A stretch of 35,017 nucleotides of DNA from Minisyncoccota bacterium (lineage in GTDB: Bacteria > Patescibacteriota > Minisyncoccia > Phycocordibacterales > Phycocordibacteraceae): the NCBI GenBank assembly GCA_017991635.1, contig JAGOQE010000002.1, forward strand, positions 1 through 35,017, given 5' to 3'. Under the pieces are notes generated by a model. That model did no database searches. It had not been told where the DNA came from and worked only from the letters and a program-made list of their open reading frames with translations. Every line of letters begins with the position of its first letter. The first letter of the stretch is position 1. This document shows, piece by piece, positions 3,053-28,972 of the stretch. Position numbers and translations under genes: made by a program.

Positions 3053-3059
3053 ACAACTT

Positions 3060-3065: not shown

Positions 3066-3140
3066 ATACATTTTGCTATTATTGTTTGAATAGAGTAGTT
3101 CGTGGCGAAACCAGCACATGAAGCGACAAACCTAAATTAA

Positions 3141-3290: not shown

Positions 3291-3299
3291 GCGTATGAT

Positions 3300-3308
3300 T
3301 GGTATACT
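3300..3308 (+). promoter_or_regulatory. Extended -10 promoter of the helicase-methyltransferase operon
   Basis: TGGTATACT matches TGnTATAAT-type extended -10 elements. A TTGATT at 3283-3288 is only 14 bases upstream, so it is a poor -35. The in-frame GTG at 3321 lies 12 bases after the -10, implying a very short leader. Confidence 0.55.
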
Positions 3309-3320
3309 AAGTCTATAAAC

Positions 3321-11876: not shown

Positions 11877-11890
11877 ACATATAAAAAGAA

Positions 11891-11924
11891 GTCGCCCGGG
11901 GAGTCGGACGACTTCCCGGGCGAC
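11891..11924 (-). terminator. Terminator of the 94-aa orphan gene
   Basis: A 15-bp stem with one wobble pair (arms beginning GTCGCCCGGG) encloses a 4-nt loop. On the minus strand it is followed by TTCTTTTT, so it terminates the 11931-12215 gene. Confidence 0.85.
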
Positions 11925-11930
11925 GTACGC

Positions 11931-12215
11931 CTAGAGCTTCACGCCGAGCATTTGAGCCCCGGCGCGCAATTTATGTTCGACGAATTCCTTTCGGCCTTCG
12001 TCGCCCTGTGCTTCTGCCGTAACGGCGCGCATGATGCACTCGAGGGCTTGGGCCCTGGTGAGCACCTTCCTCGTGTTCGGAAGACTGAGCGTCATCTGGA
12101 GCGCCGTGGCCATGCCAACGATTCGCGCATGAATAACGCGCGGATCTTCGGAACTTTCCAGGTGCGAAAGGAAGCCGTCGCGTTCTTTGAGCATTAGGCT
12201 GTGATCAAGGGACAT
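11931..12215 (-). CDS. GC-rich orphan, helical 94-aa protein
   Basis: The family is not recognised. The protein is soluble and mostly helical (SLDHSLMLKERDGFLSHLES, VIHARIVGMATALQMTLSL, then RAQALECIMRAVTAEAQ). One coding row counted by eye is about 62% GC, above neighbouring ordinary genes. It is a self-contained unit: -35 TTGACT and -10 TATACT 17 bases apart, GAGG 5 bases before the ATG, and a GC hairpin plus T-run just after the stop. This layout recurs at 14942, 20636 and 28063. Confidence 0.7.
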   Translation of the reverse strand: MSLDHSLMLKERDGFLSHLESSEDPRVIHARIVGMATALQMTLSLPNTRKVLTRAQALECIMRAVTAEAQGDEGRKEFVEHKLRAGAQMLGVKL

Positions 12216-12248
12216 TTAATCCTCGTGGGTTTGAGATGTACTGATTAT

Positions 12249-12277
12249 AGTATACACTAAAACTACATTTTAGTCAA
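12249..12277 (-). promoter_or_regulatory. Consensus promoter of the 94-aa orphan
   Basis: On the minus strand TTGACT (12272-12277) and TATACT (12249-12254) have the ideal 17-bp spacer. The -35 lies inside the 3' end of the EVE-domain gene. A Shine-Dalgarno GAGG is at 12221-12224. Confidence 0.75.
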
Positions 12278-12718
12278 TATTTCGTATTCGGGTTTGAGGA
12301 CGCGGGTGATGGAGAGGCGGTTGCCTTGGGAGAGTATTTTGAGCGCAGAGAGTTTCTTGTCGGCGCGCATAGCTTCAAGGGTGATGGGCTCCTTGAGTGT
12401 ACTTACATAGGCAACATCAACGAGGTACCAAAGGGGATTCTCTGGAGTGCATCGTTTATCAAAATATTCTGATTCAGTATCAAATTGTGCTGGGTCGGGG
12501 TACGGTTCTGAAGCTACCTTTGCCATGCCGTAAATACCCGGGACCTTGCAGTTTGAATGATAGAAAAAAATAGGATCACCCCTCTGCATGTCGTACATCA
12601 TGAAGTTCCGAGCCTGAAAATTTCTGACGCCTGTCCAGGGCGTCTTTTTGTCTTTCTTCAAGTGCTCTATGCCGTAGGTCTCGGGCTCAGATTTGATGAG
12701 CCAGTATTTGGGTTCCAT
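12263..12718 (-). CDS. EVE domain-containing protein
   Basis: 151 aa, a full-length single-domain EVE protein. The hallmark opening is KYWLIKSEPETYGIEHL, followed by PWTGVRNFQARNFMMYDMQRGDPIFFYHS, GIYGMAKV and PWYLVD-like PLWYLVDVAYV. EVE proteins have a PUA-like fold and are thought to bind modified bases in DNA or RNA. The ATG is 10 nt from a -10 TATACT. The gene is divergent from the DUF45 protease with only 31 bases between them. Confidence 0.93.
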   Translation of the reverse strand: MEPKYWLIKSEPETYGIEHLKKDKKTPWTGVRNFQARNFMMYDMQRGDPIFFYHSNCKVPGIYGMAKVASEPYPDPAQFDTESEYFDKRCTPENPLWYLVDVAYVSTLKEPITLEAMRADKKLSALKILSQGNRLSITRVLKPEYEILTKM

Positions 12719-12726
12719 TACTCTTC

Positions 12727-12742
12727 AGTATACGGGTATAGT
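12727..12742. promoter_or_regulatory. Back-to-back divergent -10 elements
   Basis: A minus-strand TATACT (12727-12732) for the EVE gene and a plus-strand TATAGT (12737-12742) for the DUF45 gene are separated by four bases, so RNA polymerase can probably occupy only one at a time. Confidence 0.55.
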
Positions 12743-12749
12743 AAGGAAA

Positions 12750-13295
12750 ATGATATTTAATGACTTTGAGGTGAAAGAATCAGTCCGCGCACGCAGTGCG
12801 CGGATAACAGTTCATCCTGATGGGCGAGTGGTGGTCACGAAGCCGAAGCGGGTGAGCGAGTCGCAGATTCAAGCGTTTGTAGACAAGCACACAGACTGGA
12901 TTGAACGGCGGCAGAAATCATTTCTCAAGCGAGGCGCACCGGTGGCGCTTCCTATGCCCCGCAGAAACTCAAAGGCATATAAGGAACTCCGCGCCCGCGC
13001 TCGCACGCTTGCATGTGAACGCCTAGAGTATTTCAATACGTTCTACAATTTTTCATACACGACTATTTCCATACGTGACCAGAAGACCCGATGGGGAAGT
13101 TGCTCCAAGGCAGGAGGTCTCTCCTTTAACCTACGCATAGCACTACTGCCAAGCGAGCTTGCAGACTATGTCGTCGTGCACGAGCTCTGCCACACCAAGG
13201 AGCATAATCACTCTGAAAAATTCTGGGCACAGGTGGAGCGCACACTACCAAACTGGAAAGAGCTCCGTCGAAAACTTCACACCTATAGTTTATAA
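12750..13295 (+). CDS. YgjP/DUF45-type zinc metalloprotease
   Basis: 181 aa from the ATG at 12750, which follows the -10 by 7 bases; an upstream in-frame ATG lies inside the divergent EVE gene. The zinc site is VVVHELCHTKEHNHSEKFW, with HELCH at 144-148 and a third His near 154. It is preceded by the family signature TRWGSCS (113-119) and FNLRIALLP. This is the WLM/SprT-like M48-related group known as YgjP, predicted to be a cytosolic peptidase often linked to restriction or repair loci. A strong hairpin follows the stop. Confidence 0.92.
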   Translation: MIFNDFEVKESVRARSARITVHPDGRVVVTKPKRVSESQIQAFVDKHTDWIERRQKSFLKRGAPVALPMPRRNSKAYKELRARARTLACERLEYFNTFYNFSYTTISIRDQKTRWGSCSKAGGLSFNLRIALLPSELADYVVVHELCHTKEHNHSEKFWAQVERTLPNWKELRRKLHTYSL

Positions 13296-13301
13296 AGTGA
13301 A

Positions 13302-13333
13302 GCGCCCGCTTGAACCAGTGTTCAAGCGGGCGC
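13302..13333 (+). terminator. Hairpin after the DUF45 gene
   Basis: Perfect 14-bp arms (GCGCCCGCTTGAAC / GTTCAAGCGGGCGC) with loop CAGT start 6 bases after the stop. No T-run follows on the plus strand, so efficiency is uncertain. Confidence 0.65.
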
Positions 13334-13360
13334 ATTGGTGAGTCGCGTTTCCATTGGATT

Positions 13361-13550
13361 TTGCGATGGGGACCCACGGTAGTCGTGTGAGTAGGGAGCG
13401 AGCGGTCTCGACTCCCCGAGTGCGCGAACCAGACATCACCCTGTCCCATCGTCTTTCAGTCATCGAGCCCCTATGCATGCATACGCTCTCGAGTAGCTCT
13501 CGTGAAAGACCTGTGGTGTCAACCTCACCTCCCGAAGGAGATCTCTCCTT
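13361..13550. ncRNA. Candidate structured RNA or structured intergenic region
   Basis: No convincing protein is encoded here. Nested complementarity is dense. CGATGGGGAC near 13362 pairs with GTCCCATCG near 13442 (one bulge) and encloses a hairpin GGGAG-CGAG-CGGT-CTCG-A-CTCCC. Then GTCTTTCA (from about 13450) pairs with TGAAAGAC (to about 13510) around a 12-nt palindrome TATGCATGCATA. Then TCCCG/CGGGA encloses AAGGAGA/TCTCCTT. The strand is undetermined. I see no tmRNA, RNase P or SRP signature. It may be an unassigned ncRNA or a remnant. Confidence 0.35.
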
Positions 13551-13598
13551 TCATCTAACGGGAGTGTCTCTACTATACCGAAAACTGAAAAAGGGAAA

Positions 13599-13622
13599 AG
13601 GCGTTGTGTTTCCACAACGCCT
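13599..13622 (-). terminator. Terminator of the NUDIX gene
   Basis: A 10-bp perfect stem AGGCGTTGTG with a GAAA tetraloop (minus strand) is followed by TTTTCCCTTTTT on the minus strand. Confidence 0.85.
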
Positions 13623-13644
13623 CCCGTATCAACGTCGTCGATAC

Positions 13645-14124
13645 TTACTTCTTCTTGCGCTTCGCGCTTTTCGCGAGAAGCTTCTTCAGGGGCTTCTTGA
13701 GGGCGATGAGCGCTTTTCTGACCTCGGGGGTGAGTTCGCACTCGAGCGCCTTCTTGTAGGACACCCATGCAGAATCATCGTGCTCGTCGCTCAGCTTGAG
13801 CACGCCGCCCTTGGACTTCATGATGCCGAAGAGAACGACATAGGGCAGACCCTTGTATCTGCCTTCGCTCCCGATGACGTAGCTGTCGGCGAAGACGAGC
13901 GGATGAATGGGGGACACGAGAAGTCCCGTTTCTTCCATCACCTCACGCTCGAGGGCGTGGGTGAGGTCTTGCCCTTCGTCGAGCTTGCCGCCGGGACCTT
14001 CCCAAAGGCCGGGGTGATGCGTGTCGGTGGCGCTTCGCTTCACGAGCAAGAGCTTGCTCTTGCGAATGATGAAGCTTCTGTTTACCAGCACCACCTTCGG
14101 GCGTTTCGTTCTGGGCGTCGTCAT
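13645..14124 (-). CDS. NUDIX hydrolase
   Basis: 159 aa. The NUDIX box spans about residues 46-68, with GGKLDEGQ and REVMEETGL. The three catalytic glutamates of RExxEE are present, but the first Glu of the GX5E part is Gln. The preceding HPGLWEGPGG is typical of MutT/NUDIX enzymes that hydrolyse nucleoside diphosphates linked to X; the substrate cannot be read. The C-terminus is a lysine-rich tail (KKLLAKSAKRKKK). The gene has its own promoter (TTGACA-17-TATAAC), a strong GGAGG 5 bases before the ATG, and its own terminator, like the GC-rich orphans nearby, although its GC is nearer ordinary. Confidence 0.93.
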   Translation of the reverse strand: MTTPRTKRPKVVLVNRSFIIRKSKLLLVKRSATDTHHPGLWEGPGGKLDEGQDLTHALEREVMEETGLLVSPIHPLVFADSYVIGSEGRYKGLPYVVLFGIMKSKGGVLKLSDEHDDSAWVSYKKALECELTPEVRKALIALKKPLKKLLAKSAKRKKK

Positions 14125-14129
14125 GACTG

Positions 14130-14182
14130 CCTCCTTTCAGTACCTCTGTTATGGTTATACTTAGAAAATTACTATTTGTCAA
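14130..14182 (-). promoter_or_regulatory. Promoter and RBS of the NUDIX gene
   Basis: On the minus strand TTGACA (14177-14182), a 17-bp spacer and TATAAC (14154-14159) are followed by GGAGG at 14130-14134 before the ATG at 14124. Confidence 0.75.
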
Positions 14183-14201
14183 AATGTATGAAAAGGGAAA
14201 A

Positions 14202-14223
14202 GGCGCCAAGTTTCCAAGGCGCC
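14202..14223 (-). terminator. Terminator of the 169-aa orphan
   Basis: GGCGCC arms 10 bases apart are followed on the minus strand by TTTTCCCTTTT. That tail is nearly the same as at the NUDIX terminator (13599). Confidence 0.6.
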
Positions 14224-14235
14224 CTCTCGAGGTAA

Positions 14236-14745
14236 TTACGTCGGTGTCAGACTACGAACTTCAATTGCACCGAACGTACCTGGAACATCAAGCCGGTGCA
14301 CTGGCGTTTTGTCTTCTCGAACATGCTCTCTGTCAGAGAGAATGATGAGCTTGTGCTTAGGTTGCCTGCGTTCCATATCAAGTGCAAAGGAAACCATGAG
14401 CTTTCGCTCAATCGTCTCAGAGTTTGGAAGGCGTACCTGCTCATCGAGCAGGCTCGCAACACCGAATATTTTTTTACCAGTATTCAGTACTCGAAGAAGT
14501 TCTGCCGGCCGACCTGGGAAGAAAATCCAGGCAGGACCACCTCTAAGGCCAACACGAGCAAAGACTCCAAGCATAGCGTTGTGCTCGGCTTCAAAGACAG
14601 GCGTATTGTTGCGGAACATGTACTCGACGTGCCCGGTCCAAAGCGTGCGGTACGTGAGCACTTTTCCACGCCTGCTTATTTCACGCTCTGCCGTTATTGT
14701 GCCTGCTCTTGGTGCTTGGCGTTTGTTTACGTGACTATTTGACAC
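14236..14745 (-). CDS. Hypothetical protein, 169 aa
   Basis: The family is not recognised. The start is a GTG at 14745 after a G-rich stretch (GGGGGATGAAGA). The protein is soluble and basic at the N-terminus (NKRQAPRAGTITAEREISRRGK), with a central hydrophobic core AWIFFPGRPAELLRVL and a C-terminal DVPGTFGAIEVRSL. No catalytic motif is apparent. A promoter (TTGAAA-18-TATAGT) and a terminator flank it, making a monocistronic unit. GC is about 52% in one counted row, so it resembles the native class. Confidence 0.65.
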   Translation of the reverse strand: MSNSHVNKRQAPRAGTITAEREISRRGKVLTYRTLWTGHVEYMFRNNTPVFEAEHNAMLGVFARVGLRGGPAWIFFPGRPAELLRVLNTGKKIFGVASLLDEQVRLPNSETIERKLMVSFALDMERRQPKHKLIILSDREHVREDKTPVHRLDVPGTFGAIEVRSLTPT

Positions 14746-14794
14746 TCTTCATCCCCCGATATAAAGGCCAAAAGGCTGACTTAGACTAATGGCG

Positions 14795-14873
14795 ACTATA
14801 GCACAGATATACTTGCTTTTTCAAGCTTTCGTGGGGTAGATACTTGACAAAAGGGCTAAAATATGTATATAAT
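14795..14873. promoter_or_regulatory. Divergent sigma70-type promoters
   Basis: Minus strand: TTGAAA (14819-14824) and TATAGT (14795-14800), 18-bp spacer, for the 169-aa gene. Plus strand: TTGACA (14844-14849) and TATAAT (14868-14873), 18-bp spacer, for the secreted orphan. The plus promoter has perfect consensus hexamers, the strongest in the window. Its leader (about 14880-14941) has a GAGGA/TCCTC hairpin. Confidence 0.75.
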
Positions 14874-14941
14874 ATATACAGAGGAATCTCCTCAAGCTCT
14901 GGCCAGATGGTCATCTCAACTTGTATCTCGGAGACTACATC

Positions 14942-15538
14942 ATGAACCGCATGGTTCTGGCCATCATGGCCGCCGCTCTTTCCATTTTCGCTGCTTCGAC
15001 CGCTTCGGCTCAACAGCGGGTCGTCGTCAACACGGCGGCGCAGTGCCAGACCATCCGGGGTACGCTCCAGGTGGAAAACGGTACGACGCTCGTCTGTGTG
15101 GTCGGCGCTTCGGCTCCCGCCCGCTCCGATCCCACGGCTCGCTTCGCTCCGGCGCCGGCCCCTCGCGTTGAGGGTGCGGTTCCGCCGAATCTGGCTCGCC
15201 TCGTCTTCGTCCCGACTTCCCGGGGGAACCAAGTGTTCTTCTCGGGCGAGCGGGTCTACCTTGAGGGTGGGCCGCAAGCCTATCTCCGGGCCATCGAGGC
15301 CTCGCGGAACCTGTGCCTCACGGACCGTTATCGTCCGCGGCAACAGATCGCTGGCCGAGACTACCCGGCAGTGGGTTACCGCGACCGTCGTCGTGGTTCG
15401 GACGGATTCGACATCCGCGCCGACGACCTGCTTCGGATGGGCTCTGCTCGCTCGCGAGCGGCCCAGGAGGAAGCTCGGGCCATGGTCCGCGACTTCTGCC
15501 GCGACTTCGAACCCTGGGACCGTCGCCAGAACCGCTAA
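14942..15538 (+). CDS. GC-rich orphan, secreted or periplasmic protein
   Basis: 198 aa from the ATG at 14942, chosen because GGAG lies just upstream and the N-terminus is a clean signal peptide: MNRMVLAIMAAALSIFAAS then a likely cut after ASA before QQ. The mature protein has a Pro/Ala-rich linker (ARFAPAPAPRVEGAVPP) and an Arg/Asp-rich C-terminal half with three Cys in all, ending RDFCRDFEPWDRRQNR. The family is not recognised. One coding row counts as about 77% GC, far above the neighbours. It has a consensus promoter, structured leader and terminator, so it is an autonomous cassette. A long antisense frame over it is a composition artefact. Confidence 0.75.
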   Translation: MNRMVLAIMAAALSIFAASTASAQQRVVVNTAAQCQTIRGTLQVENGTTLVCVVGASAPARSDPTARFAPAPAPRVEGAVPPNLARLVFVPTSRGNQVFFSGERVYLEGGPQAYLRAIEASRNLCLTDRYRPRQQIAGRDYPAVGYRDRRRGSDGFDIRADDLLRMGSARSRAAQEEARAMVRDFCRDFEPWDRRQNR

Positions 15539-15562
15539 GCGAAAACCGCACATCATGTGCAA

Positions 15563-15595
15563 AGCCCCCGATTTCCTTTTAGGAAACCGGGGGCT
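15563..15595. terminator. Bidirectional terminator
   Basis: AGCCCCCG/CGGGGGCT plus TTTCC/GGAAA with one A-C mismatch and a 5-nt loop lie between two convergent genes and can serve both. Confidence 0.8.
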
Positions 15596-15602
15596 CAGTC
15601 AT

Positions 15603-16031
15603 TTAGTGGCCACCATGACCACTTCCGCCATGGCTTCGCTTGTGGAAGATGAGCGAGACCAGTGTGCCAAGGACGGCGGCGATAATTGAAGGCATAAGAA
15701 TGGCCGTAGCTTGAAGCCAGTTCTCCGCATTGCTCCACACATGATCCCTGAAGGGAATGTTCATGAGGAAGTAGGCAAAGGTCGAGACTGCAAGCGTAAG
15801 GCCCATGCCACGATTCACCCAGGAGAGCATGCCTGAGACGGCAGCCACTATCGGGAAGACGAGCTTGAAGGCTTCCTTGTGGGGAATGCCCTCAACGGCC
15901 CATGCCGTCGTCAAAAACAGACTTCCCATATAGCGCGCAACTAGGAATGTGAGCACGCCAAAGCAAAGGGCAAGGGGAACACGTTTGGTTTTCTCCCACA
16001 GGACGTGGAAGGGCGTGTGCTTCGATGACAT
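15603..16031 (-). CDS. Small membrane protein with His-rich C-terminus
   Basis: 142 aa from the ATG at 16031, preceded by GGAGGA; a longer frame upstream lacks a ribosome-binding site. Four hydrophobic segments are visible: ALCFGVLTFLVARYMGSLFL, LVFPIVAAVSGMLSWV, LTLAVSTFAYFLMNIPF and ILMPSIIAAVLGTLVSLIF. The end is HKRSHGGSGHGGH, which could bind metal or only be a tag-like cytosolic tail. The family is not recognised. A TTGAAA (16083-16088) with a weak TACGCT gives a possible promoter. It is convergent with the secreted orphan and shares its terminator. Confidence 0.65.
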   Translation of the reverse strand: MSSKHTPFHVLWEKTKRVPLALCFGVLTFLVARYMGSLFLTTAWAVEGIPHKEAFKLVFPIVAAVSGMLSWVNRGMGLTLAVSTFAYFLMNIPFRDHVWSNAENWLQATAILMPSIIAAVLGTLVSLIFHKRSHGGSGHGGH

Positions 16032-16111
16032 CGATTCCTCCATCAAGCCTATCCAGAATAAGCGTACGCCCTTTCTCGGGCTTTTCAACCTCTGGGGTAT
16101 ACTATTTTTAT

Positions 16112-17044
16112 ATGGAGAAAAAGACCCCAACTGTAGATATTCCAAAGAAGCCTCGTTTTGGTATCCCACACATTCACCTATCAGTAAGTGATGGTTTGCG
16201 TCAGTTTCTTATCATTTTCTTTTCCGTATTCTTCTCCATGACTGTGGCAGTCGTAGCAATTTATCTATTGAGTGAGTCCGCAGGTGGTGATGAGGACCCT
16301 TATGCTGAGTCGTACTCCGAGAGAGGATTCTTTGGTGAAGAGTGTAACGTTACCTCAATCGCACTTCGTGATTGCTTGGTCACCTACACGACAGGCGAAG
16401 AGGGAGAGGCAGAATCTCAGGGCTGTTACGCTCTCACCTCATCTGAGTCAGTTGCCACAATGGTTGAGGAGGCAAACAAAGACTCACATATCCATGCAAT
16501 TTTGCTTGATGTTGATTCCTACGGCGGTTCTCCCGTAGCGGGAGAAGAAATGGCAGAAGCGGTAAAGGCAAGTGAGAAGCCTGTGGTGGCGTGGGTCAGA
16601 AGTGGCGCTGCCTCTGCTGCGTATTGGGCGATTAGTCCAGCTGACGTGATTGTTGCTTCTAAGAATTCTGACATCGGTAGTATCGGTGTCACTGCGTCAT
16701 ATCTTGATAACGCGCAGTCTAACGAGGATTCTGGATACACGTATAACCAGCTCTCAACAGGTGTATTCAAAGACTTAGGGAATCCAGACAAACCTCTAAC
16801 TGATGATGAGCGTACACTCATAAAGAAACAGCTCAACATTATTTTCGATAACTTCATTGGCGAAGTTGCTTTAAATAGAAACGTCCCAGAAGCAACCGTG
16901 CGTGAAATTGCAGACGGTTCAACCATGCTCGGTGAAGAGGCGCTTGAGTTCAAACTTATTGATATGATTGGTGGAAAGAAGGAAGCATACGCAACACTTC
17001 AAGAGCTCACCAAGCATGAACCGGTGGTGTGTGGGCCCTACTAG
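16112..17044 (+). CDS. sppA: Signal peptide peptidase SppA-like serine protease
   Basis: 310 aa from the ATG at 16112, 8 bases after a TATACT -10. One transmembrane helix (about 33-55) anchors the protein. The S49 protease domain follows, with LLDVDSYGGSPVAGEEMAEA, then KPVVAWVRSGAASAAYW carrying the nucleophilic Ser, and SKNSDIGSIGVTASY. The catalytic Lys lies further on in the single S49 repeat, as in the short bacterial SppA form. It degrades cleaved signal peptides in the membrane. Two bases separate it from the downstream helicase gene, so they form an operon. Confidence 0.9.
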   Translation: MEKKTPTVDIPKKPRFGIPHIHLSVSDGLRQFLIIFFSVFFSMTVAVVAIYLLSESAGGDEDPYAESYSERGFFGEECNVTSIALRDCLVTYTTGEEGEAESQGCYALTSSESVATMVEEANKDSHIHAILLDVDSYGGSPVAGEEMAEAVKASEKPVVAWVRSGAASAAYWAISPADVIVASKNSDIGSIGVTASYLDNAQSNEDSGYTYNQLSTGVFKDLGNPDKPLTDDERTLIKKQLNIIFDNFIGEVALNRNVPEATVREIADGSTMLGEEALEFKLIDMIGGKKEAYATLQELTKHEPVVCGPY

Positions 17045-17046
17045 GT

Positions 17047-20544: not shown

Positions 20545-20595
20545 ACAAAAAGGATAGCATGCACGAGTAGTAGTTCTTGTTCGTTATATACAAAG

Positions 20596-20620
20596 CGCCC
20601 GCGCTTTAAGGGCGCGGGCG
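20596..20620 (-). terminator. Terminator of the GC-rich 106-aa orphan
   Basis: A 9-bp GC stem (CGCCCGCGC/GCGCGGGCG) with a 7-nt loop lies 16 bases past the stop on the minus strand, followed by a weak CTTTG. Confidence 0.7.
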
Positions 20621-20635
20621 AGGGGACGTCCCCAT

Positions 20636-20956
20636 CTAGTCGATGATGCGCTCACGCGCGTGACGGGGAGGCGGAAGTTCGCGAACAGGAACGCCGTCTC
20701 CGAAATGCTTCTTCGCTCCGTCGATTGCTGACGTGAGCGCTCCTTCAGCGTACCCTCTGGGGCACCCGTCGACGATGTGCAGGCGGACCTGATTGTCGTC
20801 AGGAGCACGCAGGGTCGGCACGATGTCGATGCAGACAATGGACCTCAGTTCTTCCGTTTGGAAGTAGGTCTCAACTGACAGCTTGATGCTTCGGCCGGCG
20901 AGTTCGAGCTCGCGGTCCGTAAACATTCCTTTTCTGACGTGCATTATTAACTGCAC
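20636..20956 (-). CDS. GC-rich orphan, 106-aa protein
   Basis: The family is not recognised. I place the start at the GTG at 20956 because GGAGG lies 5 bases before it; an ATG four codons later (20944) is the alternative. The protein is soluble, mixed alpha/beta (MFTDRELELAGRSIKLSVET, SIVCIDIVPTL, VRLHIVDGCPRGYAEGA) with a Pro/Arg end VRELPPPRHARERIID. One coding row is about 67% GC. A promoter TTGCGA-16-TAGAAT and a terminator give it the same autonomous layout as the other orphans. Confidence 0.7.
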   Translation of the reverse strand: MQLIMHVRKGMFTDRELELAGRSIKLSVETYFQTEELRSIVCIDIVPTLRAPDDNQVRLHIVDGCPRGYAEGALTSAIDGAKKHFGDGVPVRELPPPRHARERIID

Positions 20957-21004
20957 GTATACCTCCCGAAAATTACAATCCGCCCACAATGAGCGGAAGA
21001 GCGT

Positions 21005-21032
21005 ATTCTACCCTTCAGAAGACTTCTCGCAA
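21005..21032 (-). promoter_or_regulatory. Promoter of the 106-aa orphan
   Basis: On the minus strand TTGCGA (21027-21032) and TAGAAT (21005-21010) have a 16-bp spacer. The leader is about 40 nt, with GGAGG at 20962-20966. Confidence 0.6.
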
Positions 21033-21038
21033 GGGTAT

Positions 21039-21617: not shown

Positions 21618-21618
21618 A

Positions 21619-22878: not shown

Positions 22879-22917
22879 AGTCCTAGTGTAGCAAATTACA
22901 AAATGAGATGACAGGAC

Positions 22918-23475
22918 TTATACGCCGGTTTCTGTGTGTCGCAAGTCTGCAATCTCTTTCATGATGAGGTCGCGTAGTCCTGTTGCATCTGGAATACCGC
23001 GCATGGAGAAGTAGTCGGTAGTACCAGCACTTTGCACTATCAAGGTGCCGTAACCCACAATGGTTGGAAAGAATCCGTGCACATCAGTGGTGACGTCTTG
23101 AACACGGTTTAATAGAAGACTCGAGACTTCACGGCTAAAGAAACCACGCTGTTCAATTTCAATGATGCGGTGAGTCGTGATAATCCACTGATTAAGGAAG
23201 TAGCTGGTGTAGAGGTTAAAAGCACAAATCCATAGGACGAGCCAATAGAGGCCAAGCAAAAAGCGCACAAAAGGATTCTCGTCGGTGAGAAAGTTTATGA
23301 TAGGCGCAAATACATCACCTCGATTAGCGCCAAGGAAAGAGAGCAGGTCAGGAACAATGAGTGGCGCCACTGCAAGAATGGCAAAGGGAAGTAGTTCAAG
23401 GAAGAACACAAACCAGTGTTTTCGTACTGCCTTGGTAATGCGCTCTCCTGGTTCTAGGTTAAATTCTTCGTGCAT
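22918..23475 (-). CDS. Bacterial PH-domain membrane protein (YdbS/bPH2-like)
   Basis: 185 aa. Two hydrophobic segments occupy residues 25-50 and 74-95, followed by a bPH2 domain with WIITTHRIIEIEQRGFFSREVSSLLLNRVQDVTTD and a GYGTLIVQSAGTTDYFSMRGIPD end. These proteins are membrane-bound with a cytosolic PH-like barrel; their ligand is unknown. It sits 6 bases after the 86-aa gene and 39 bases before hisS, inside a run of minus-strand genes from prmC to the exonuclease. Confidence 0.85.
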   Translation of the reverse strand: MHEEFNLEPGERITKAVRKHWFVFFLELLPFAILAVAPLIVPDLLSFLGANRGDVFAPIINFLTDENPFVRFLLGLYWLVLWICAFNLYTSYFLNQWIITTHRIIEIEQRGFFSREVSSLLLNRVQDVTTDVHGFFPTIVGYGTLIVQSAGTTDYFSMRGIPDATGLRDLIMKEIADLRHTETGV

Positions 23476-23481
23476 AGAAAA

Positions 23482-23742
23482 TTAATGAAGTCCTGCCGTT
23501 GCGTAAAACATAAGGGCAATGGATACCACTATGTGCACTGCAATTGAGGGAGCTGCGAGCCATGAGTTTCTGCTGTAGCGCACCCAATGGTAGATAGAGA
23601 TAACGGTATAGATTGCCCAGATGGCAAAGAGAATAAGAAATAGAAAGGGAACTAGGTCATAGAATCCTGAGAGCTCCAAGGTTTGAGAAAATCCACCAGG
23701 CAAGGCATCAATTGTGGGTGCGTTGGGTAGCGTTGAGGCCAT
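23482..23742 (-). CDS. Small two-helix membrane protein
   Basis: 86 aa with two predicted membrane helices (FLFLILFAIWAIYTVISIY and IAVHIVVSIALMFYA) and a Pro-rich N-terminus. The family is not recognised. Its ATG overlaps the prmC stop (TAATG), so it is translated with prmC. It lies between prmC and the PH-domain gene and may be a partner of the latter. Confidence 0.75.
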   Translation of the reverse strand: MASTLPNAPTIDALPGGFSQTLELSGFYDLVPFLFLILFAIWAIYTVISIYHWVRYSRNSWLAAPSIAVHIVVSIALMFYATAGLH

Positions 23743-24518
23743 TACGTATATGATACCAAGAGGCGGGGACGTCCATACTGGTCGAGGTGGAGAGCGCTTT
23801 GCGGTAGAGTGGCTTCCTGTGCGAGTGCGAGCACCACATCTGCGTGCTCGCTATCGCACTCAAGCCATAGTGAGCCACCAGCATGTAACCGCGTTGTTAC
23901 TTCTTTGAGAATTGTCCGAATCACGGAAAGTCCATCCGTGCCTGCAAACAGGGCGAGTGACGGCTCAAAACCTGTAACACTGTGTTCAAGCCTGCGCGCC
24001 TCTGGAATGTAGGGCGGGTTGGTGGCGATTACATCAAACGTTTTTGATTGGGGAAGTGAACTCCATACGTCTCCTTCATATATATATGCACGACTGAGTT
24101 CTAGGTCGTTGGCTAAAATATTCTTCTCAATAAGAGGGAGGTGCTCGGGGTCCTTTTCTACAAAGGTCACCATGCTCTTGGGGAATGCTTTCATAAGCGC
24201 AATACCAATTGCGCCACTGCCCGCACACAGATCGAGTATTTCGTAGGGAGATTCAACTCCTTTAGTGCTCTGTTCTTGTATGAGCTTCTCTACCCACCAT
24301 TCTGTTTCAGGGCGGGGGATGAGTGGATGGGTATCAAGGTGAATGGTGAGTCCAAGGAAGGGCTGTGTGTTTAGGACGTACGCCAATGGCTCGCCAGATT
24401 GTAAACGTGCAATATCAACGCTCATGTTGGCGTCCTTGTCTCCGTTATATTTCTCCTCTCGCAAGGAGCGAAGGTCGTGTGCGTCTATGTTGTCCACGTT
24501 GTTTCTTTTCAAGCTCAT
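23742..24518 (-). CDS. prmC: Peptide chain release factor N5-glutamine methyltransferase
   Basis: 258 aa from the ATG at 24518. The frame extends to an ATG at 24548, but that would run into the divergent promoter region. The SAM motif is ILDLCAGSGAIGIAL, and the substrate-binding motif NPPYIPEAR is the HemK/PrmC signature; PRPETEWWV precedes them. It methylates the GGQ glutamine of release factors. The start lies 18 bases from the divergent DUF1360-like gene. Confidence 0.93.
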   Translation of the reverse strand: MSLKRNNVDNIDAHDLRSLREEKYNGDKDANMSVDIARLQSGEPLAYVLNTQPFLGLTIHLDTHPLIPRPETEWWVEKLIQEQSTKGVESPYEILDLCAGSGAIGIALMKAFPKSMVTFVEKDPEHLPLIEKNILANDLELSRAYIYEGDVWSSLPQSKTFDVIATNPPYIPEARRLEHSVTGFEPSLALFAGTDGLSVIRTILKEVTTRLHAGGSLWLECDSEHADVVLALAQEATLPQSALHLDQYGRPRLLVSYT

Positions 24519-24520
24519 CG

Positions 24521-24532
24521 TACACTTATACG
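24521..24532. promoter_or_regulatory. Overlapping divergent -10 elements (prmC / DUF1360-like)
   Basis: Only 18 bases separate the two start codons. A plus TACACT (24521-24526) or TATACG (24527-24532) and a minus TATAAG (24525-24530) overlap, so both mRNAs would be leaderless and the -35 regions lie inside the opposite genes. Confidence 0.4.
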
Positions 24533-24536
24533 TACT

Positions 24537-24998
24537 ATGCGTATACACTTCTGGAACCTCATGTTCTCTTTGTTCTTTTTAGTACTCGTCTTACTCGGTG
24601 CAGTAGTGCTTCTACAAAGCGGTCGCATGCCTCAGACGATTACCTTCGGTAATGTCTTCTTGCTCTCACTCGCTATCTTTAGATTGGTACGACTCTTCAC
24701 CTACGACCACATCACTGAGTTTATTCGCGCTTGGTTTGTAGGCGCTCCAAAAGAATCATTTAGAGGAACGATGGGCGCACTCCTTAACTGTCCGTGGTGC
24801 ACGGGACTATGGTTTAGTTTTATCGTAGTCTTCTTTGCCTTTATGACGGCACTTGCGTGGCCGATTATCCTCGTTCTCGCCCTTGCAGCACTGGCCTCAT
24901 TTTTCCAGCTCGTCGCGAACCTTATTGGGTGGCATGCTGAAGCTAAGAAACAAGAGAGCCAAGTTGGACGAGAGACTCCTGGTAAGTGTCAGATCTAA
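24537..24998 (+). CDS. DUF1360-like membrane protein
   Basis: 153 aa. Three to four membrane helices (MFSLFFLVLVLLGAVVLL, FLLSLAIFRLVRLFTYD, LWFSFIVVFFAFM, IILVLALAALASFF). The conserved DUF1360 core is present: RLVRLFTYD, then FRGTMGALLNCPWCTGLWFS with the CPWC pair. Function is unknown; a related Bacillus protein is spore-associated. The start at 24537 is chosen because it follows the shared divergent promoter. A terminator shared with the RRM gene follows. Confidence 0.83.
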   Translation: MRIHFWNLMFSLFFLVLVLLGAVVLLQSGRMPQTITFGNVFLLSLAIFRLVRLFTYDHITEFIRAWFVGAPKESFRGTMGALLNCPWCTGLWFSFIVVFFAFMTALAWPIILVLALAALASFFQLVANLIGWHAEAKKQESQVGRETPGKCQI

Positions 24999-25013
24999 GT
25001 CTACTCACGTAAA

Positions 25014-25046
25014 CAAAAAACTCCCGATTTTACTCGGGAGCTTTTT
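25014..25046. terminator. Bidirectional terminator
   Basis: CTCCCGA/TCGGGAG stem with a 6-nt loop has A-run and T-run flanks on both sides, between two convergent genes. Confidence 0.9.
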
Positions 25047-25058
25047 GTAAGAGAGAGA

Positions 25059-25391
25059 TTAGTAGCTGCCGTAGCCTCCACCGTTTCCACCTCCGTTTCC
25101 GTAGCCACCACCTCCGCCTTCACGGCGAGGAGGGCGATCACCTTGTGGGCGAGCAAAAGAAACTGAAAGCGTTCGGCCATCAAATTCCTTTCCGTCCCAA
25201 CGGTCTACTGCAGCCTGAGCCTGAGCCTCGTCTGCCATTTCTACGAAGCCGAAGCCACGAGAACGACCAGTCATGCGATCGCTAATAATGCTTACGGAAG
25301 TAACGGTACCAGCCTCTTCAAAGGCGGTACGCATTTCGTCCTCGGTCGTGCGGTAAGGAATACCACCGACATAGAGTTTGTTGCTTGACAT
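25059..25391 (-). CDS. RRM RNA-binding protein with Gly-rich tail
   Basis: 110 aa. One RNA-recognition motif: RNP2 LYVGGI near the N-terminus and RNP1 RGFGFVEM near 45, with the aromatic residues that stack on RNA. The C-terminus (residues 88-110) is a GGGGGYGNGGGNGGGYGSY-type tail, as in cyanobacterial Rbp cold-shock proteins and eukaryotic glycine-rich RNA-binding proteins. It probably acts as an RNA chaperone. A TATAAC -10 lies shortly before the ATG, so the leader is short. Confidence 0.95.
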   Translation of the reverse strand: MSSNKLYVGGIPYRTTEDEMRTAFEEAGTVTSVSIISDRMTGRSRGFGFVEMADEAQAQAAVDRWDGKEFDGRTLSVSFARPQGDRPPRREGGGGGYGNGGGNGGGYGSY

Positions 25392-25604
25392 GCGTGTGCG
25401 TAATACGAGTTATAACTCTCGCTTTCAAACCTGTGGAGCTTACGCTAAACACCTGCTTTTCCTGCGAGCTATCTATCACTATGCTATAGAATCACTATTT
25501 CTGCAAGGCGCTCTGGGGATGGTGTGGATTGCGGAGCGAACCTTTTCCTGCCTGTGCGCTTTGCACCCTAATGAGTCTTTAGCATGCTACATTTTGAGGA
25601 GTAT
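25392..25604. promoter_or_regulatory. Intergenic region and long cydA leader
   Basis: The 213 bases hold the minus-strand RRM promoter near 25410 (TATAAC) and a plus-strand -10-like TATAGA around 25485. About 110 nt of leader precede cydA, including CGCTC/GAGCG arms near 25510-25540. The only plausible Shine-Dalgarno is GAGGAG a few bases before the cydA ATG. No gene is convincing here. Confidence 0.4.
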
Positions 25605-26972
25605 ATGGACCCACTGACGCTCTCCCGAATCCAATTTGGCGATACTGCCGCCTTTCACATTTTGTGGCCACTTCTCTCAATCGGTTTGGCATTCTTCATG
25701 TTCATTATGGAAGTCCTTTGGCTCAAGACGAAAGATGTACGGTACTACCGTCAGCTTCGATTCTGGATAAAAATCTTCCTTCTGTCTTTTGCAATTGGCG
25801 TTGCTAGTGGATTTCCGCTCTCATTTCAGTTTGGTACTAACTGGGCAGCATTCTCTGCCGCTGCCGGAAGCTTCTTTGGAAACATTCTAGGGTTTGAAAC
25901 TACGATTGCTTTTACGCTTGAAACTGCGTCCTTGGGAATATTGGTGTTTGGGTGGAAGAGAGTGCCGAAGCTCGTGCACCTTTTAGCAAACCTTGGCGTA
26001 CTCGTAGGTTCGTCACTTTCTGGTTTCTGGATTGTGGCAGCGAACTCATGGATGCAAATTCCTCATGGCGTCATTTTGGAAGGCGGAAAGATTGTAGTCG
26101 TTGACTACATGGCAGCAATCTTTAATCCCTCTACAGTCGTCTCGTTCGCGCACATGTGGATTGCCTGCATTACCTCAACGCTGTTCTTTATGGCAGGAAT
26201 CTCTGCAATCGTGTTGCTTTCAAAAAAAGCAGACGAGGCTAAGAAAGCGTTTTTCTTGCACACGTTTAAGTTTACGCTTGGACTTGCTCTAGTACTCACC
26301 CCAATTCAAATTGGTGTAGGAGATTTGATTGGAGAAGTCATTGCAAAGCATCAGCCAGCAAAGCTTGCCGCCGTTGAACTTCATTGGGATACCAATATGC
26401 CTGGCGAGGGTGCTGATTGGGCAGTGCTTGCGTGGCCAAATAAGGAGGGAGGGAAGAATGATGTAGAGTTCGCACTTCCTGATGCGCTCTCTCTCATTGT
26501 GACGAAGACACAGACAGGAGAAGTGAAAGGGTTGAATGAATTTGCACCTGAGGACCGTCCATCAATTCTTAACTCCATCATGGTTTTCTACTCGTTTAGG
26601 ATTATGGTCGGTATTGGCATGCTTATGTTCGCGCTCACGCTTTGGGGTGCGTGGCTCTGGAAGAAAAAGAAGCTCGTCCTTCCGACTATCACCAAGCATC
26701 GCTGGTTCTTGCGGGCATTTGTACTTTCTATTCCTATTGGCTTTATCGCAACAGAGGCAGGATGGATGGTGCGTGAAATTGGACGACAGCCCTGGGTTAT
26801 TTATGGACTTATGCGAACTAAAGATGCGCTTTCTGCGCACCTTGAAATTCCCGTCATCTTCTCAGTCATTGCTTCCATCACTGCGCTCTATCTCGCCATG
26901 TTCATCGCTTTTGTGTACTTTACGGTGCGTCTTGTGCAAGAAGGGCCTGACTTAACGAGTCCTGCACCATGA
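25605..26972 (+). CDS. cydA: Cytochrome bd ubiquinol oxidase subunit I
   Basis: 455 aa from the ATG at 25605, preceded by GAGGAG. The N-terminal SRIQFGDTAAFHILWPLL carries His18, the equivalent of the heme b595 ligand. GFPLSFQFGTNW, SGFWIVAANSWMQIPHG and FAHMWIACITS (second His) are typical, and the conserved GRQPW lies near residue 393. The loop between the central helices is short, so this is the short-Q-loop type. The protein oxidises quinol and reduces oxygen in the membrane. It overlaps cydB at ATGA. Terminal oxidases are uncommon in Patescibacteria. Confidence 0.97.
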   Translation: MDPLTLSRIQFGDTAAFHILWPLLSIGLAFFMFIMEVLWLKTKDVRYYRQLRFWIKIFLLSFAIGVASGFPLSFQFGTNWAAFSAAAGSFFGNILGFETTIAFTLETASLGILVFGWKRVPKLVHLLANLGVLVGSSLSGFWIVAANSWMQIPHGVILEGGKIVVVDYMAAIFNPSTVVSFAHMWIACITSTLFFMAGISAIVLLSKKADEAKKAFFLHTFKFTLGLALVLTPIQIGVGDLIGEVIAKHQPAKLAAVELHWDTNMPGEGADWAVLAWPNKEGGKNDVEFALPDALSLIVTKTQTGEVKGLNEFAPEDRPSILNSIMVFYSFRIMVGIGMLMFALTLWGAWLWKKKKLVLPTITKHRWFLRAFVLSIPIGFIATEAGWMVREIGRQPWVIYGLMRTKDALSAHLEIPVIFSVIASITALYLAMFIAFVYFTVRLVQEGPDLTSPAP

Positions 26973-27967
26973 CCGAACTACTTCCAATCATTTGGTACGT
27001 CATCATCTGTGCGGAGCTCGCGCTCTACATCATGCTCGATGGTGCGAATCTTGGTGTCGGTATCTTGACCCTTATACCTCAGAAGGAGAAGGTACGTGCA
27101 CGTATTCTAGATACACTCGGTCCTATTTGGAACGCAAACGAGACATGGCTTTTGGTTGCAGCGGGAACTCTCTTTGGTGCGTTCCCGCTTGCCTACAGTG
27201 TTGGTTTGAATGCGCTCTATGTTCCGGGAGTCATAGTCCTTGTCGGGCTCGCTCTTCGCGCAGTCTCTTTTGAGTTCCATTCGCTCGCACGCAAAAAGCA
27301 GTTTTGGAGTTTTCTTTTTGGATTTGGAAGTTTGATTACCGTTGTGGGACAGGGGGCCATGCTTGGCGGATTGGTAAGTGGAATTCCTGTTGTAGAGGGT
27401 GTGTTTGCAGGAACAGCTTTTGGATTCCTTACTCCTATTACCGTGCTTATGGTTATTGGAACCGTGGGAAGTTATCTCGTGCTTGGATACGCGTACCTTA
27501 TTAAGCGTATGGATTATGAAAACGCGAAGGAAAGTTTCCGAGACCTCCTGCTTTCTGTGGGGCTCACGTTTCTTGCCCTTCTCTCAGCAACGTTCTTTCT
27601 ACCAAATACGAGCTATGTGTTCTTTGAGCGTTGGACGACTGCACCTTCCATGTACTATCTCATCGCGATAGGACTCGGTATTGCAGTGACAGGGCTGTTG
27701 CTTGGCATTTCTGTACTCACGGGAAAGCTTCACAAGCACCTGCACACCATGTGCCTTATTATCTTTGGCCTTGGTTTTGTAGGAATGCTTATTGGAACCT
27801 ATCCGTACCTTCTCCCTCCTTCAGTAACGCTCTTTGAGGCAGCGTCACCTTCTAATACGCTGCAGTTCATGCTTTGGGGTATCGGTCCTATTTTGCCAAT
27901 TATTCTCGTATACAACTTCTATCTACACCGCATTTTCTCAAGAAGGGGAGAGGAAGAGGCATATTGA
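26969..27967 (+). CDS. cydB: Cytochrome bd ubiquinol oxidase subunit II
   Basis: 332 aa with eight or nine membrane helices. Family marks are YIMLDGANLGVGIL at the N-terminus, IWNANETWLLVAAGTLFGAFP, RAVSFEFH and the later YTYLVPP-like YPYLLPPSVTLFEAASP. It pairs with CydA. The ATG overlaps the cydA stop by four bases, indicating coupled translation. The TGA stop overlaps the -35 of the next gene's promoter. No cydX or cydCD is seen in the window. Confidence 0.96.
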   Translation: MTELLPIIWYVIICAELALYIMLDGANLGVGILTLIPQKEKVRARILDTLGPIWNANETWLLVAAGTLFGAFPLAYSVGLNALYVPGVIVLVGLALRAVSFEFHSLARKKQFWSFLFGFGSLITVVGQGAMLGGLVSGIPVVEGVFAGTAFGFLTPITVLMVIGTVGSYLVLGYAYLIKRMDYENAKESFRDLLLSVGLTFLALLSATFFLPNTSYVFFERWTTAPSMYYLIAIGLGIAVTGLLLGISVLTGKLHKHLHTMCLIIFGLGFVGMLIGTYPYLLPPSVTLFEAASPSNTLQFMLWGIGPILPIILVYNFYLHRIFSRRGEEEAY

Positions 27968-27992
27968 CTTTAACCTAAAAATCTGCTATACT
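27964..27992 (+). promoter_or_regulatory. Consensus promoter of the membrane orphan
   Basis: TTGACT (27964-27969) and TATACT (27987-27992) have a 17-bp spacer plus an upstream TGC extended -10. The -35 overlaps the cydB stop codon. The hexamers and spacing equal those at 12249-12277. Confidence 0.8.
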
Positions 27993-27996
27993 GTAT

Positions 27997-28062
27997 GCGG
28001 AACTTGTATTTCCGCGTTGCTTGAAAATCTGAACAGCACGGCCCTAAGGAGGGGCTTTCATC
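27997..28062 (+). promoter_or_regulatory. Structured leader with partly hidden Shine-Dalgarno
   Basis: GCGGAA/TTCCGC forms a hairpin at 27997-28015. AAGGAGG (28046-28052) lies in a GCCC/GGGC hairpin whose loop holds most of the ribosome-binding site, 10 bases before the ATG. The hairpin could control initiation; no known riboswitch class is recognised. Confidence 0.45.
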
Positions 28063-28875
28063 ATGTCGAACGACGTCACCTATCCCGGCGCGTCCCCGTT
28101 CCCGATCAACAAGGGCGATGACCCCAAGCTGATGAAGAGGCTCATCCTCGCTCTCGTCATCATTGCCGGCATCGCGGCCCTGATCGTGGCGGTCCTCACG
28201 GCCATCACGCCCAAGGCGCTCCCGCTCTCGACCTCGGTCCAGGCCGAGTCGGGCGAGTACCTGGCCTCGATCGGCCGGGACTCCGGCGGAGTTTCCATCC
28301 GCGCGATGGGTCTCGCCAACCTCTTCCCGAGGTCGGCGGCCTACGAGAGCAACTGTGGCGACGGACGGCAGGGCGTGATGCTCTGCAATCCCCGCTATGA
28401 GCTCTCGCAGCTGAACACCCTTCGCCCCGGCGAAGCGGTCTTCATCCCGAGCCAGATCGACCTGACCCAGCGCTTCGCCCAAATGGGCAGTGCGCCGGTC
28501 GCCATCGTCGTCGACACGCGCTCGCCCCAAGCTGCCGCCATCGCGGCCGTCTACGTTCGCGAGAGCGAACGCTTGGGACGCTCGGACACCGTCTGGCTCA
28601 CCGACGGCAGGATGGTTCGGCAGTATCTGCCGAACCGCATCGACGACCAGATGTCGGTGTCCGGCATTCCTGGCGCCGTCAACGTGGCCGTCGGCTCTTC
28701 TGGCGCCGAGACGGCCTTCCTGATCACGACCCGTGACCTCACGGGTATCGAACAGGGTGGCTACCTCGGCGTGCGGCGGCTGTTCGGGCACTGTGCGACG
28801 CCCGAGTGCAAGCGCCTCAACAGTGAGGTGCGCGCCAACCACGGCCGGATGTTCCCGGTCGAGTTCAGGCCCTAG
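28063..28875 (+). CDS. GC-rich orphan, single-pass membrane protein
   Basis: 270 aa. A 30-residue cytosolic N-terminus is followed by one membrane helix (LILALVIIAGIAALIVAVLTAI) and a soluble C-terminal part outside. That part contains four Cys and the segments VAIVVDTRSPQAAAIAAVYV, DTVWLTDGRMVRQYLP and GYLGVRRLFGHCATPECKRL. The family is not recognised. One row of coding sequence counts as 70% GC, against 52% in cydB immediately upstream. It has its own consensus promoter, a strong Shine-Dalgarno and a palindromic terminator. Confidence 0.78.
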   Translation: MSNDVTYPGASPFPINKGDDPKLMKRLILALVIIAGIAALIVAVLTAITPKALPLSTSVQAESGEYLASIGRDSGGVSIRAMGLANLFPRSAAYESNCGDGRQGVMLCNPRYELSQLNTLRPGEAVFIPSQIDLTQRFAQMGSAPVAIVVDTRSPQAAAIAAVYVRESERLGRSDTVWLTDGRMVRQYLPNRIDDQMSVSGIPGAVNVAVGSSGAETAFLITTRDLTGIEQGGYLGVRRLFGHCATPECKRLNSEVRANHGRMFPVEFRP

Positions 28876-28916
28876 GGCACAGACAAAATCCACTTCACGA
28901 GTTTTGTGAAGCTGGT

Positions 28917-28956
28917 ATGGGCGCAACGTTCTTCGGCCGAAGAACGTTGCGCCCAT
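28917..28956 (+). terminator. 40-nt perfect palindrome, probable terminator
   Basis: Twenty-base arms are perfectly complementary with no spacer; each arm runs from ATGGGCGC to CTTCGG. ATTTTT overlaps and follows the right arm on the plus strand, so it can terminate the orphan gene. A smaller CTTCAC/GTGAAG hairpin lies just before it. Confidence 0.75.
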
Positions 28957-28972
28957 TTTTCATATCTACCAA

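Follow-up and report, generated by a model that had tools for sequence, protein, structure and literature searches.

The stretch of DNA analysed here, referred to as the window, covers bases 1–35,017 of a 165.5-kb contig from a Parcubacteria assembly of 726 kb (21 contigs, 96% complete, 2.2% contamination; genome G000 below). Four small genes in the window, named cassettes A to D, are outliers in composition, and each is provided with its own predicted promoter of the sigma70 type, a Shine-Dalgarno (SD)-like site and a downstream hairpin. The original prediction of scattered, self-contained single-gene orphan units was borne out, and the four open reading frames (ORFs) are real. They appear to belong to a wider class of GC-rich units that occupy interchangeable slots between core transcription units, with coding mRNAs that are predicted to be more strongly folded, as a class mean, than the encoded proteins demand.

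Cassette A (11931–12215, minus strand), identified from its composition and a search of relatives, encodes a 94-aa orphan with a GC content of 0.58 and a GC content at third codon positions (GC3) of 0.68. Its predicted promoter, TTGACT-N17-TATACT, is located at 12249–12277 on the same strand; as with all promoters given here, it was found by promoter scoring and its position was read from the sequence. A terminator hairpin with a T run (score 27) follows at 11882–11924, also on the minus strand. Cassette B (14942–15538, plus strand) encodes a 198-aa orphan with a start that by eye resembles a signal peptide (GC 0.67, GC3 0.74). Its predicted promoter, TTGACA-N18-TATAAT, lies at 14844–14873 on the plus strand. 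Cassette C (20636–20956, minus strand) occupies the gap between an exonuclease-like gene and a DsbA-like gene and encodes a 106-aa orphan (GC 0.58, GC3 0.67), again identified by composition and a search of relatives. Its start is most likely the GTG at 20956, preceded by the SD sequence GGAGGT and a predicted promoter, TTGCGA-N16-TAGAAT (21005–21032, minus strand), and its terminator hairpin is found at 20590–20619 (minus strand, score 22). Cassette D (28063–28875, plus strand), recognised from its composition, sits between cydB and an FAD-oxidase-like gene and encodes a 270-aa orphan with one N-terminal hydrophobic helix (GC 0.67, GC3 0.88, SD AAGGAGG). Its predicted promoter, TTGACT-N17-TATACT (27964–27992, plus strand), overlaps the cydB stop codon, and a hairpin followed by a T run is present at 28917–28961 (plus strand, score 27).

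The promoters of A and D are identical in both hexamers and in spacing, as had been pointed out. The GC contents first given for the four genes (62, 77, 67 and 70%) were too high, the measured values being those listed above. The SD sites had all been described as clear, which fits C and D, where they are strong; those of A (AGGA) and B (GGAG) are modest. Similarly, a hairpin is present downstream of all four genes, with the qualification that the one at B (15563–15595, plus strand) has a poor T run, receives an automatic score of 0 on the strand of B and may serve the opposite gene, leaving the terminator of B doubtful.

Two further genes of the window resemble the cassettes. The gene at 13645–14124 (minus strand) has the same architecture, with the SD sequence AGGAGG, a predicted promoter TTGACA-N17-TATAAC (14154–14182, minus strand) and a terminator (13589–13622, minus strand, score 25). 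It had been described as lacking the extreme GC, which was mistaken given a GC3 of 0.79. Its product belongs to a recognised family, being a NUDIX hydrolase that passes the curated cut-off of PF00293 (62.4 bits versus 21.1, Pfam E = 5.9e-17). When ten proteins were searched with PADLOC, the NUDIX gene alone was matched, to a candidate family. The gene at 15603–16031 (minus strand) encodes a 142-aa protein with hydrophobic stretches and is, from its composition (GC3 0.65) and signal scores (SD GGAGG), probably a further class member. For the gene at 14236–14745, the absence of extreme GC was correctly noted (GC3 0.46); the architecture ascribed to it is there only in part, since it carries two of the three signals and no SD site. 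A 15-base word, AAAAGGGAAAAGGCG, heads the terminators of both the NUDIX gene and the 14236 gene (13589–13603 and 14191–14205). Apart from the cassettes and the 13645 and 15603 genes, GC3 in the window ranges from 0.36 to 0.61.

The cassettes had been said to have no recognised family. This stands for A, B and D, which found no match in Pfam at E ≤ 1, and for all four in NCBIfam at E ≤ 0.1; C has a sub-threshold Pfam match to DUF3868 (E = 0.044). Profiles of D and A matched no solved structure at E ≤ 0.1. Structure prediction of D from three sequences gave a mean predicted local distance difference test (pLDDT) score of 48.7 and that of C from a single sequence gave 42.0, and both models were unusable; a Foldseek search with D returned no match at E ≤ 0.001. 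Viewed by eye, D looks like a LysM-like domain with an α/β domain after it, a reading that was dropped because Pfam gave no match at E ≤ 1.

Relatives were searched for in 147 genomes, one of which is G000 itself. Among the 146 others, A was matched in two, B in none, C weakly in one (E = 0.0043) and D in two. The relatives of A belong to the same genus, are 39–40% identical and have a GC3 of 0.64–0.66, and named records with homologues of D are metagenome-assembled genomes of the Parcubacteria group. By comparison, of 98 genomes (G000 included), 44 have a match to the neighbouring UvrD-like gene and 60 to the neighbouring FAD-oxidase-like gene at E ≤ 1e-60. All four cassettes are thus absent from most relatives, as is typical of ORFans, and orthologues throughout the lineage, which would have spoken against the original prediction, were not found. 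The stretches fetched from relatives have a GC content of about 46 to 64%.

A survey of 340 kb of the G000 genome was carried out with a home-made, two-model gene caller, whose choice of start and whose score favour SD sites in GC-rich and other genes alike. Four genes of the window, the 14942 gene and three others, were entered manually. Of 280 genes with enough flanking sequence to be scored, 25 were GC-rich, and these were enriched in expression signals, which places the cassettes in a genome-wide class. An SD score of at least 5 was found in 16 of the 25 GC-rich genes and 48 of the 255 others (Fisher p = 4e-6), a promoter score of at least 12.5 in 12/25 and 23/255 (Fisher p = 4e-6), and a terminator score of at least 19 in 19/25 and 49/255 (Fisher p = 1e-8). 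With looser promoter and terminator cut-offs, all three signals coincide in 10 of the 25 and 10 of the 255, so that the full set is present in under half of the GC-rich genes. The arrangement of predicted promoter, SD leader, one small ORF and terminator is therefore over-represented among GC-rich genes. Class genes usually stand alone, with both gaps above 60 nt in 85% of 20 class genes compared with 25% of 177, and they more often encode an N-terminal hydrophobic stretch (11/22 versus 50/206, p = 0.02). Neither ten further class members of G000 nor ten additional proteins (one from a ribosomal slot of G000 described below, nine from relatives) had a Pfam match above the curated cut-off. The units are scattered over the genome and not arrayed. 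A continuous range of GC, named at the outset as evidence against such a class, was observed in part, as the GC3 distribution of G000 has a single peak with a long right tail and not two peaks. In one place (L019:16871–18243), two paralogous class genes lie in tandem, 29% identical and both with the promoter TTGACT-N16-TATAAC, and may have arisen by duplication of a whole unit.

Comparison of the sites in relatives, as originally proposed, demonstrated that at the site of cassette C the relatives are either empty or hold other genes. In G000, G051, G062 and G037, the gap between the exonuclease-like and DsbA-like genes (the latter identified by eye in G037) contains a promoter-like site, an ORF of 106–130 aa and a hairpin, and the four ORFs have no BLAST match to one another at E ≤ 1. 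The same gap measures only 0–67 nt in G023, G024, G013 and G006. In G030, the slot (L038:7540–8113) contains a promoter, a terminator and a short leader. It has one ORF on the opposite strand and none in the sense direction, and may be either an emptied unit or a small RNA. The gap between cydB and the FAD-oxidase-like gene holds D in G000, a 28–30% identical D in G075, and in G019 an unrelated gene of 199 aa with the same −35 hexamer; a match to cydB was obtained in just 4 of 88 genomes, and in the fourth (G020) it covers 183 of 332 residues.

Slots are also present within the ribosomal S10-spc operon, which was compared in 20 relatives and G000 (one relative lacks an L2 call), with each of ten joints measured in those genomes where the genes on both sides had been called. 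Seven of the joints span 0–188 nt throughout, while S10|L3, L2|S19 and L5|S14 vary. Across 13 genomes, L5|S14 spans 36–71 nt in four and 554–1118 nt in nine, and six of the nine long gaps contain an ORF with an SD score of at least 5. As to the remainder, the G000 gap has a 168-aa ORF with a GC3 of 0.69 and a weaker SD site, that of G084 a 114-aa ORF with a TTG start, and that of G033 no SD-type ORF. One lipoprotein-like unit is common to G051, G053 and G012. The other ORFs at this joint have no BLAST match to that unit or to one another, which amounts to at least six unrelated ORFs, and they are not uniformly GC-rich (G037, 0.47; G065, 0.53). The S14 promoter downstream of the insert is nearly identical in the seven sequences compared. 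The L2|S19 joint additionally contains a core-like gene in reverse orientation that is common to many of the genomes. In the ribosomal operon of G000 itself, small SD-type ORFs with a GC3 of 0.44–0.54 are found at S10|L3 and L2|S19 (L083:17897–18561 and 13246–13764). From these comparisons, both the class and its slots are well supported: putative units fill slots between core transcription units, and relatives have the slot empty or occupied by an unrelated unit.

Within G051, G037 and G062, small genes of the SD type exceed the remaining small genes in GC3 (p = 0.003, 0.053 and 0.008, respectively). For a comparison across genomes, class genes were picked by SD site and promoter with GC3 ignored, giving 47 genes from 14 of the 27 genomes sampled. 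Their mean GC3 was 0.67, 0.68, 0.71 and 0.71 where the core means were 0.44, 0.56, 0.61 and 0.72, although the two GC-rich bins contain 11 genes only. Class GC3 does not track core GC3 (slope 0.14 ± 0.18), and genes selected by these predicted signals average about 0.7 independently of core composition.

The second property of the class is the predicted folding of its mRNAs, expressed as a z score relative to shuffled sequences in which the protein, the codon usage and the dinucleotides are unchanged. For the 23 ORFs of the class, the mean z was −1.48 (p = 7e-6), whereas 25 low-GC genes of G000 and 25 genes of GC-rich relatives had −0.18 and −0.10. A set of 43 class genes from other genomes, selected by SD site and promoter or, in G051 and G053, by SD site and GC3, had a mean of −1.52 (36 of 43 negative) against −0.35 for 40 core genes (21 negative); two of the 47 genes from the cross-genome set proved to be S19 ribosomal protein genes to which an internal start had been assigned, and were omitted from this test. 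When folded locally, the class (n = 23) scored −1.66 and conserved genes from GC-rich relatives −0.26 (n = 136; p = 3e-6), with proteobacterial controls at 0.05 (Alloyangia, 29 genes) and −0.48 (Paraburkholderia, 19 genes). Across 209 genes of G000, the local z lies between −0.3 and −0.5 below a GC3 of 0.52, reaches −0.82 at 0.52–0.60 and falls to −1.6 to −1.7 from 0.60 upwards. When only codon usage was preserved in the shuffles, GC-rich relatives gave −0.48 (p = 0.05) and core genes of other genomes −0.55 (p = 0.007), so a weak general folding signal exists. Short perfect hairpins were considered as the source and rejected (6 bp, 20 versus 14.3 expected; 7 bp, 6 versus 6.0). As class means, then, the coding mRNAs are more stable than their codon- and dinucleotide-preserving shuffles; this excess is statistically well supported, and the messages are predicted to be more locally structured than protein, codon usage and dinucleotides demand. 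The 14236 gene of the window, of ordinary GC3, has a z of −2.9 and is among the most folded of the low-GC3 genes; it is a possible member of the class.

How the high GC3 and the folding arose may be considered in terms of several explanations. The one favored here, held at about even probability, is that the units are accessory, exchangeable single-gene units of one Parcubacteria genus, often coding for exported proteins, and that selection favors high GC and structure in their mRNAs. Recent transfer from GC-rich donors, with too little time for amelioration, is possible though doubtful. It would make the promoter, SD site, terminator, codons and folding all signatures of the donor, which could be a member of the same genus (58–64% GC in the fetched stretches) or another GC-rich bacterium. 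The patchy presence of the units, their replacement at slots and the graded tail of GC3 are in keeping with such transfer. So is codon usage, since that of the class correlates at 0.91 with GC-rich relatives and at 0.92 and 0.90 with two GC-rich proteobacteria, compared to 0.44 with the G000 core; taken individually, 10 of 16 genes are closest to the GC-rich relatives and 6 of 16 to the Alloyangia table. A unit shared by loci L116 and L119 also appears to have been exchanged recently, with a divergence at 4-fold sites of 0.11 where flanking genes have 0.47–0.65. The leader of this unit is conserved (32/35), its promoter spacer (11/19) not. Another shared unit (L059:13147–13701 and L120:16503–17030) has a long conserved hairpin in its 5′ leader, followed by more leader, in an attenuator-like arrangement. 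In G051, the essential gene for elongation factor G (EF-G; L093:12543–14576) has a GC3 of 0.79 and seems to have been replaced by a GC-rich xenologue, the sister genome G053 and also G012 having 0.50 at 58% identity.

Several observations argue against recent transfer as the whole explanation. Orthologous cassettes keep a high GC3 in several low-GC genomes (0.81/0.80, 0.79/0.83 and 0.76/0.75/0.66), and their GC3 is likewise high and similar across G051, G053 and G012. The GC3 of D is 0.88 in G000, 0.84 in G075 and 0.88 in G085 at 28–30% identity, although the stretches bearing D in G075 and G085 are themselves 56 and 62% GC; the fact that one relative, G075, has this distant homologue in the very same gap also speaks against a simple recent insertion. 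The 163-aa lipoprotein-like unit, in place at L5|S14 in three genomes, is under purifying selection (ratio of nonsynonymous to synonymous substitution rates, 0.19). With G012 as the outgroup, its 4-fold sites show 7 GC>AT changes at 50 GC sites and 7 AT>GC changes at 25 AT sites, where 12 ribosomal genes polarised in the same way show 96/310 and 115/754. The direction of change differs from that expected of decay, about 80% GC>AT (p = 0.011), and suggests, from small numbers, that high GC is upheld and not decaying in this cassette. The other shared units have divergences of 0.28–0.57, with the core at 0.53, and at such distances the pairs alone are compatible with decay from a still higher GC. 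In addition, the folding excess is absent in GC-rich relatives and in both proteobacterial controls, and the collections searched yielded no donor for those genes that were tested. Translational selection, acting strongly on codon choice in genes of very high expression, would explain the strong promoters and SD sites and the near absence of A-ending codons (0.038 of 4-fold sites), yet it is improbable. Codon optimisation for high expression fails for the class because the genes for ribosomal proteins, EF-G, elongation factor Tu (EF-Tu) and SecY in G000 have ordinary GC3 (0.36–0.60) and mostly lack an SD site, and the class favors codons that are rare in its own genome (CGG, 0.23 versus 0.04; CTG, 0.28 versus 0.07). 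An assembly chimaera or contaminating GC-rich DNA might be suspected from the 21 contigs, 96% completeness and 2.2% contamination; it is hardly credible given that several assemblies made independently have such units in the same slots, between the same flanking sequences, with the 163-aa unit in place in three genomes.

The layout had also been likened to that of phage morons. As independent promoter-gene-terminator units, morons resemble the orphan units, and each cassette is indeed a single gene with its own promoter and terminator (doubtful at B); none was found to lie within a prophage or phage genome. No phage gene was recognised by eye in the window, in agreement with the original remark that there are none around; its genes appear housekeeping or restriction-modification-like, and part of the window proteins were scanned against profiles. 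PHROG matches were weak, with a best E of 0.064 for the window genes scanned and 0.0074 among ten proteins. IMG/VR contained no relatives of A, B or D, and phage and plasmid records none of B or D. Direct repeats flanking A, B, C and D reach 7–8 nt at most, within the range of shuffles, a test that short target duplications would escape, and the 15-nt repeat flanking the NUDIX unit is part of two terminators. No 18-base word is common to the flanks of units at different loci, where degenerate sites would escape and the search did not extend to attC structure, and 16-mers are shared at one −10 region only. An apparent excess of common 12-mers (1018 versus a mean of 181) was discarded, as it vanished once same-locus pairs were excluded, leaving 46, where an intergenic control had a mean of 31 and a maximum of 52. 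These tests would be compatible with short target duplications or with recombination sites that are degenerate, so an origin as cargo of a phage, a plasmid or some other mobile element not yet sampled is conceivable, and like the moron reading it is judged very improbable. The ORFans of γ-Proteobacteria, according to a view cited by Cortez et al. (PMC2718499), are small, AT-rich and phage-like, a composition opposite to that of this class. Elsewhere in the window, beside a tRNA-Arg gene, is a run of genes (1787–10047) with a GC3 of 0.36–0.41, opposite in composition to the cassettes; named by eye, they are HNH-like, large helicase-like and methyltransferase-like, and the run is possibly a defence island.

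Selection on the mRNAs as the cause faces a number of contrary findings. By regression over 209 genes, folding follows GC3 (t = −4.3) and not the count of expression signals (t = −0.1), and therefore the structure of a message and its autonomous expression may have separate causes. No added folding is seen in the five low-GC3 genes that carry all three signals (z = −0.50), the ribosomal region shows some folding of its genes (−0.80, n = 32), and SD-type genes of GC-rich relatives are just mildly more folded (−0.65, n = 12). Clear members may be unfolded, such as L060:1417 with a GC3 of 0.92 (z = 0.96) and L119:8401 with consensus promoter hexamers (z = −0.16), and the excess of sense over antisense folding is modest (−1.57 versus −0.95, p = 0.03). 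The polarised test consists of 14 changes in one gene, with separate Fisher p values of 0.017 and 0.094. Recent exchange fits the low divergence of the L116/L119 unit at least as well as constraint does. Promoters of the exonuclease|DsbA slot are weak in G051 and G062, and in G030, where the median GC3 is 0.72, small SD-type genes are not GC-richer (p = 0.82). Finally, a search for the 16S rRNA 3′ end with its anti-SD pattern found no match to the strict pattern in 164 loci and 58 genomes; the result is uninformative and leaves the anti-SD sequence unconfirmed.

If the favored explanation is correct, high GC3 and folding would be kept by selection acting on the mRNA, while the core genome rests at its own lower-GC equilibrium. 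The most likely purpose would be a stable, nuclease-resistant and well-translated message for exported or envelope proteins, which may come into play when the cell meets a host or a competitor; what the proteins do and what the folding is for are both read from indirect signs. Relatives would gain and replace units by recombining with one another in the ordinary way at the joints of operons, places in which a self-contained insert may be tolerated without harm, and a dedicated integrase would not be needed. A broader and more tentative proposal is that one Parcubacteria genome maintains two expression regimes, in which core operons are mostly SD-less and lower in GC, and exchangeable units have GC-rich, folded mRNAs under selection as RNA. 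The unit of exchange and of selection would then be the whole transcript from promoter to terminator, and the messages may persist as stores for envelope and exported proteins, or the RNA itself may play a second part.

The units matter since a streamlined lineage appears to carry GC-rich orphans with their own expression signals in reusable slots, some inside the ribosomal operon, which is among the most conserved of bacterial gene orders. They are candidate surface or exported proteins of bacteria whose host interactions are mostly unknown. Should selection on the structure of the RNA be what keeps their composition, methods that detect foreign genes by composition would misread such units, and whether the odd composition of orphans marks origin or function becomes testable.

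Among known systems, several offer partial parallels. With phage morons, the units share an independent promoter, gene and terminator between other genes and an orphan content; they differ in that no prophage was recognised, no phage relatives were found for those tested, and they are GC-rich and lie between chromosomal operons, ribosomal ones included. Like integron cassettes, they are interchangeable single-gene units at defined places, but they have their own promoters, occupy dispersed sites and share no long flanking word. Chromosomal hotspots and ORFans likewise present unrelated, small genes of atypical composition at the same core junction; here, there is often one gene per slot with full signals, the genes are GC-rich instead of AT-rich, the coding mRNA is predicted to be folded, and slots extend into S10-spc. 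As for exchange in related organisms, a study of groundwater Patescibacteria describes roughly one gene transferred per genome, along with islands of 2.7–45 kb, and no mention of this class was found in the available parts of that text (PMC12455944). Within the literature searched on genes and expression signals of Candidate Phyla Radiation (CPR) bacteria and Parcubacteria, part of it available as excerpts, no description of such a GC-rich class was found, nor, in that on folding, of an excess concentrated in one defined class. The closest likeness in terms of RNA is to structure-selected genes. About 2.5% of the ORFs per bacterial species are reported, in the portion available, to be under structural selection (Gebert et al. 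2019, PMC6544989), and a section heading of Peeri and Tuller 2020 (PMC7063772) refers to a weak folding bias in endosymbionts and intracellular organisms. As far as those excerpts go, such genes and the present class both have local folding in excess of codon-shuffled versions, and what sets the class apart is that the signal is concentrated in one compositionally defined, orphan-rich group.

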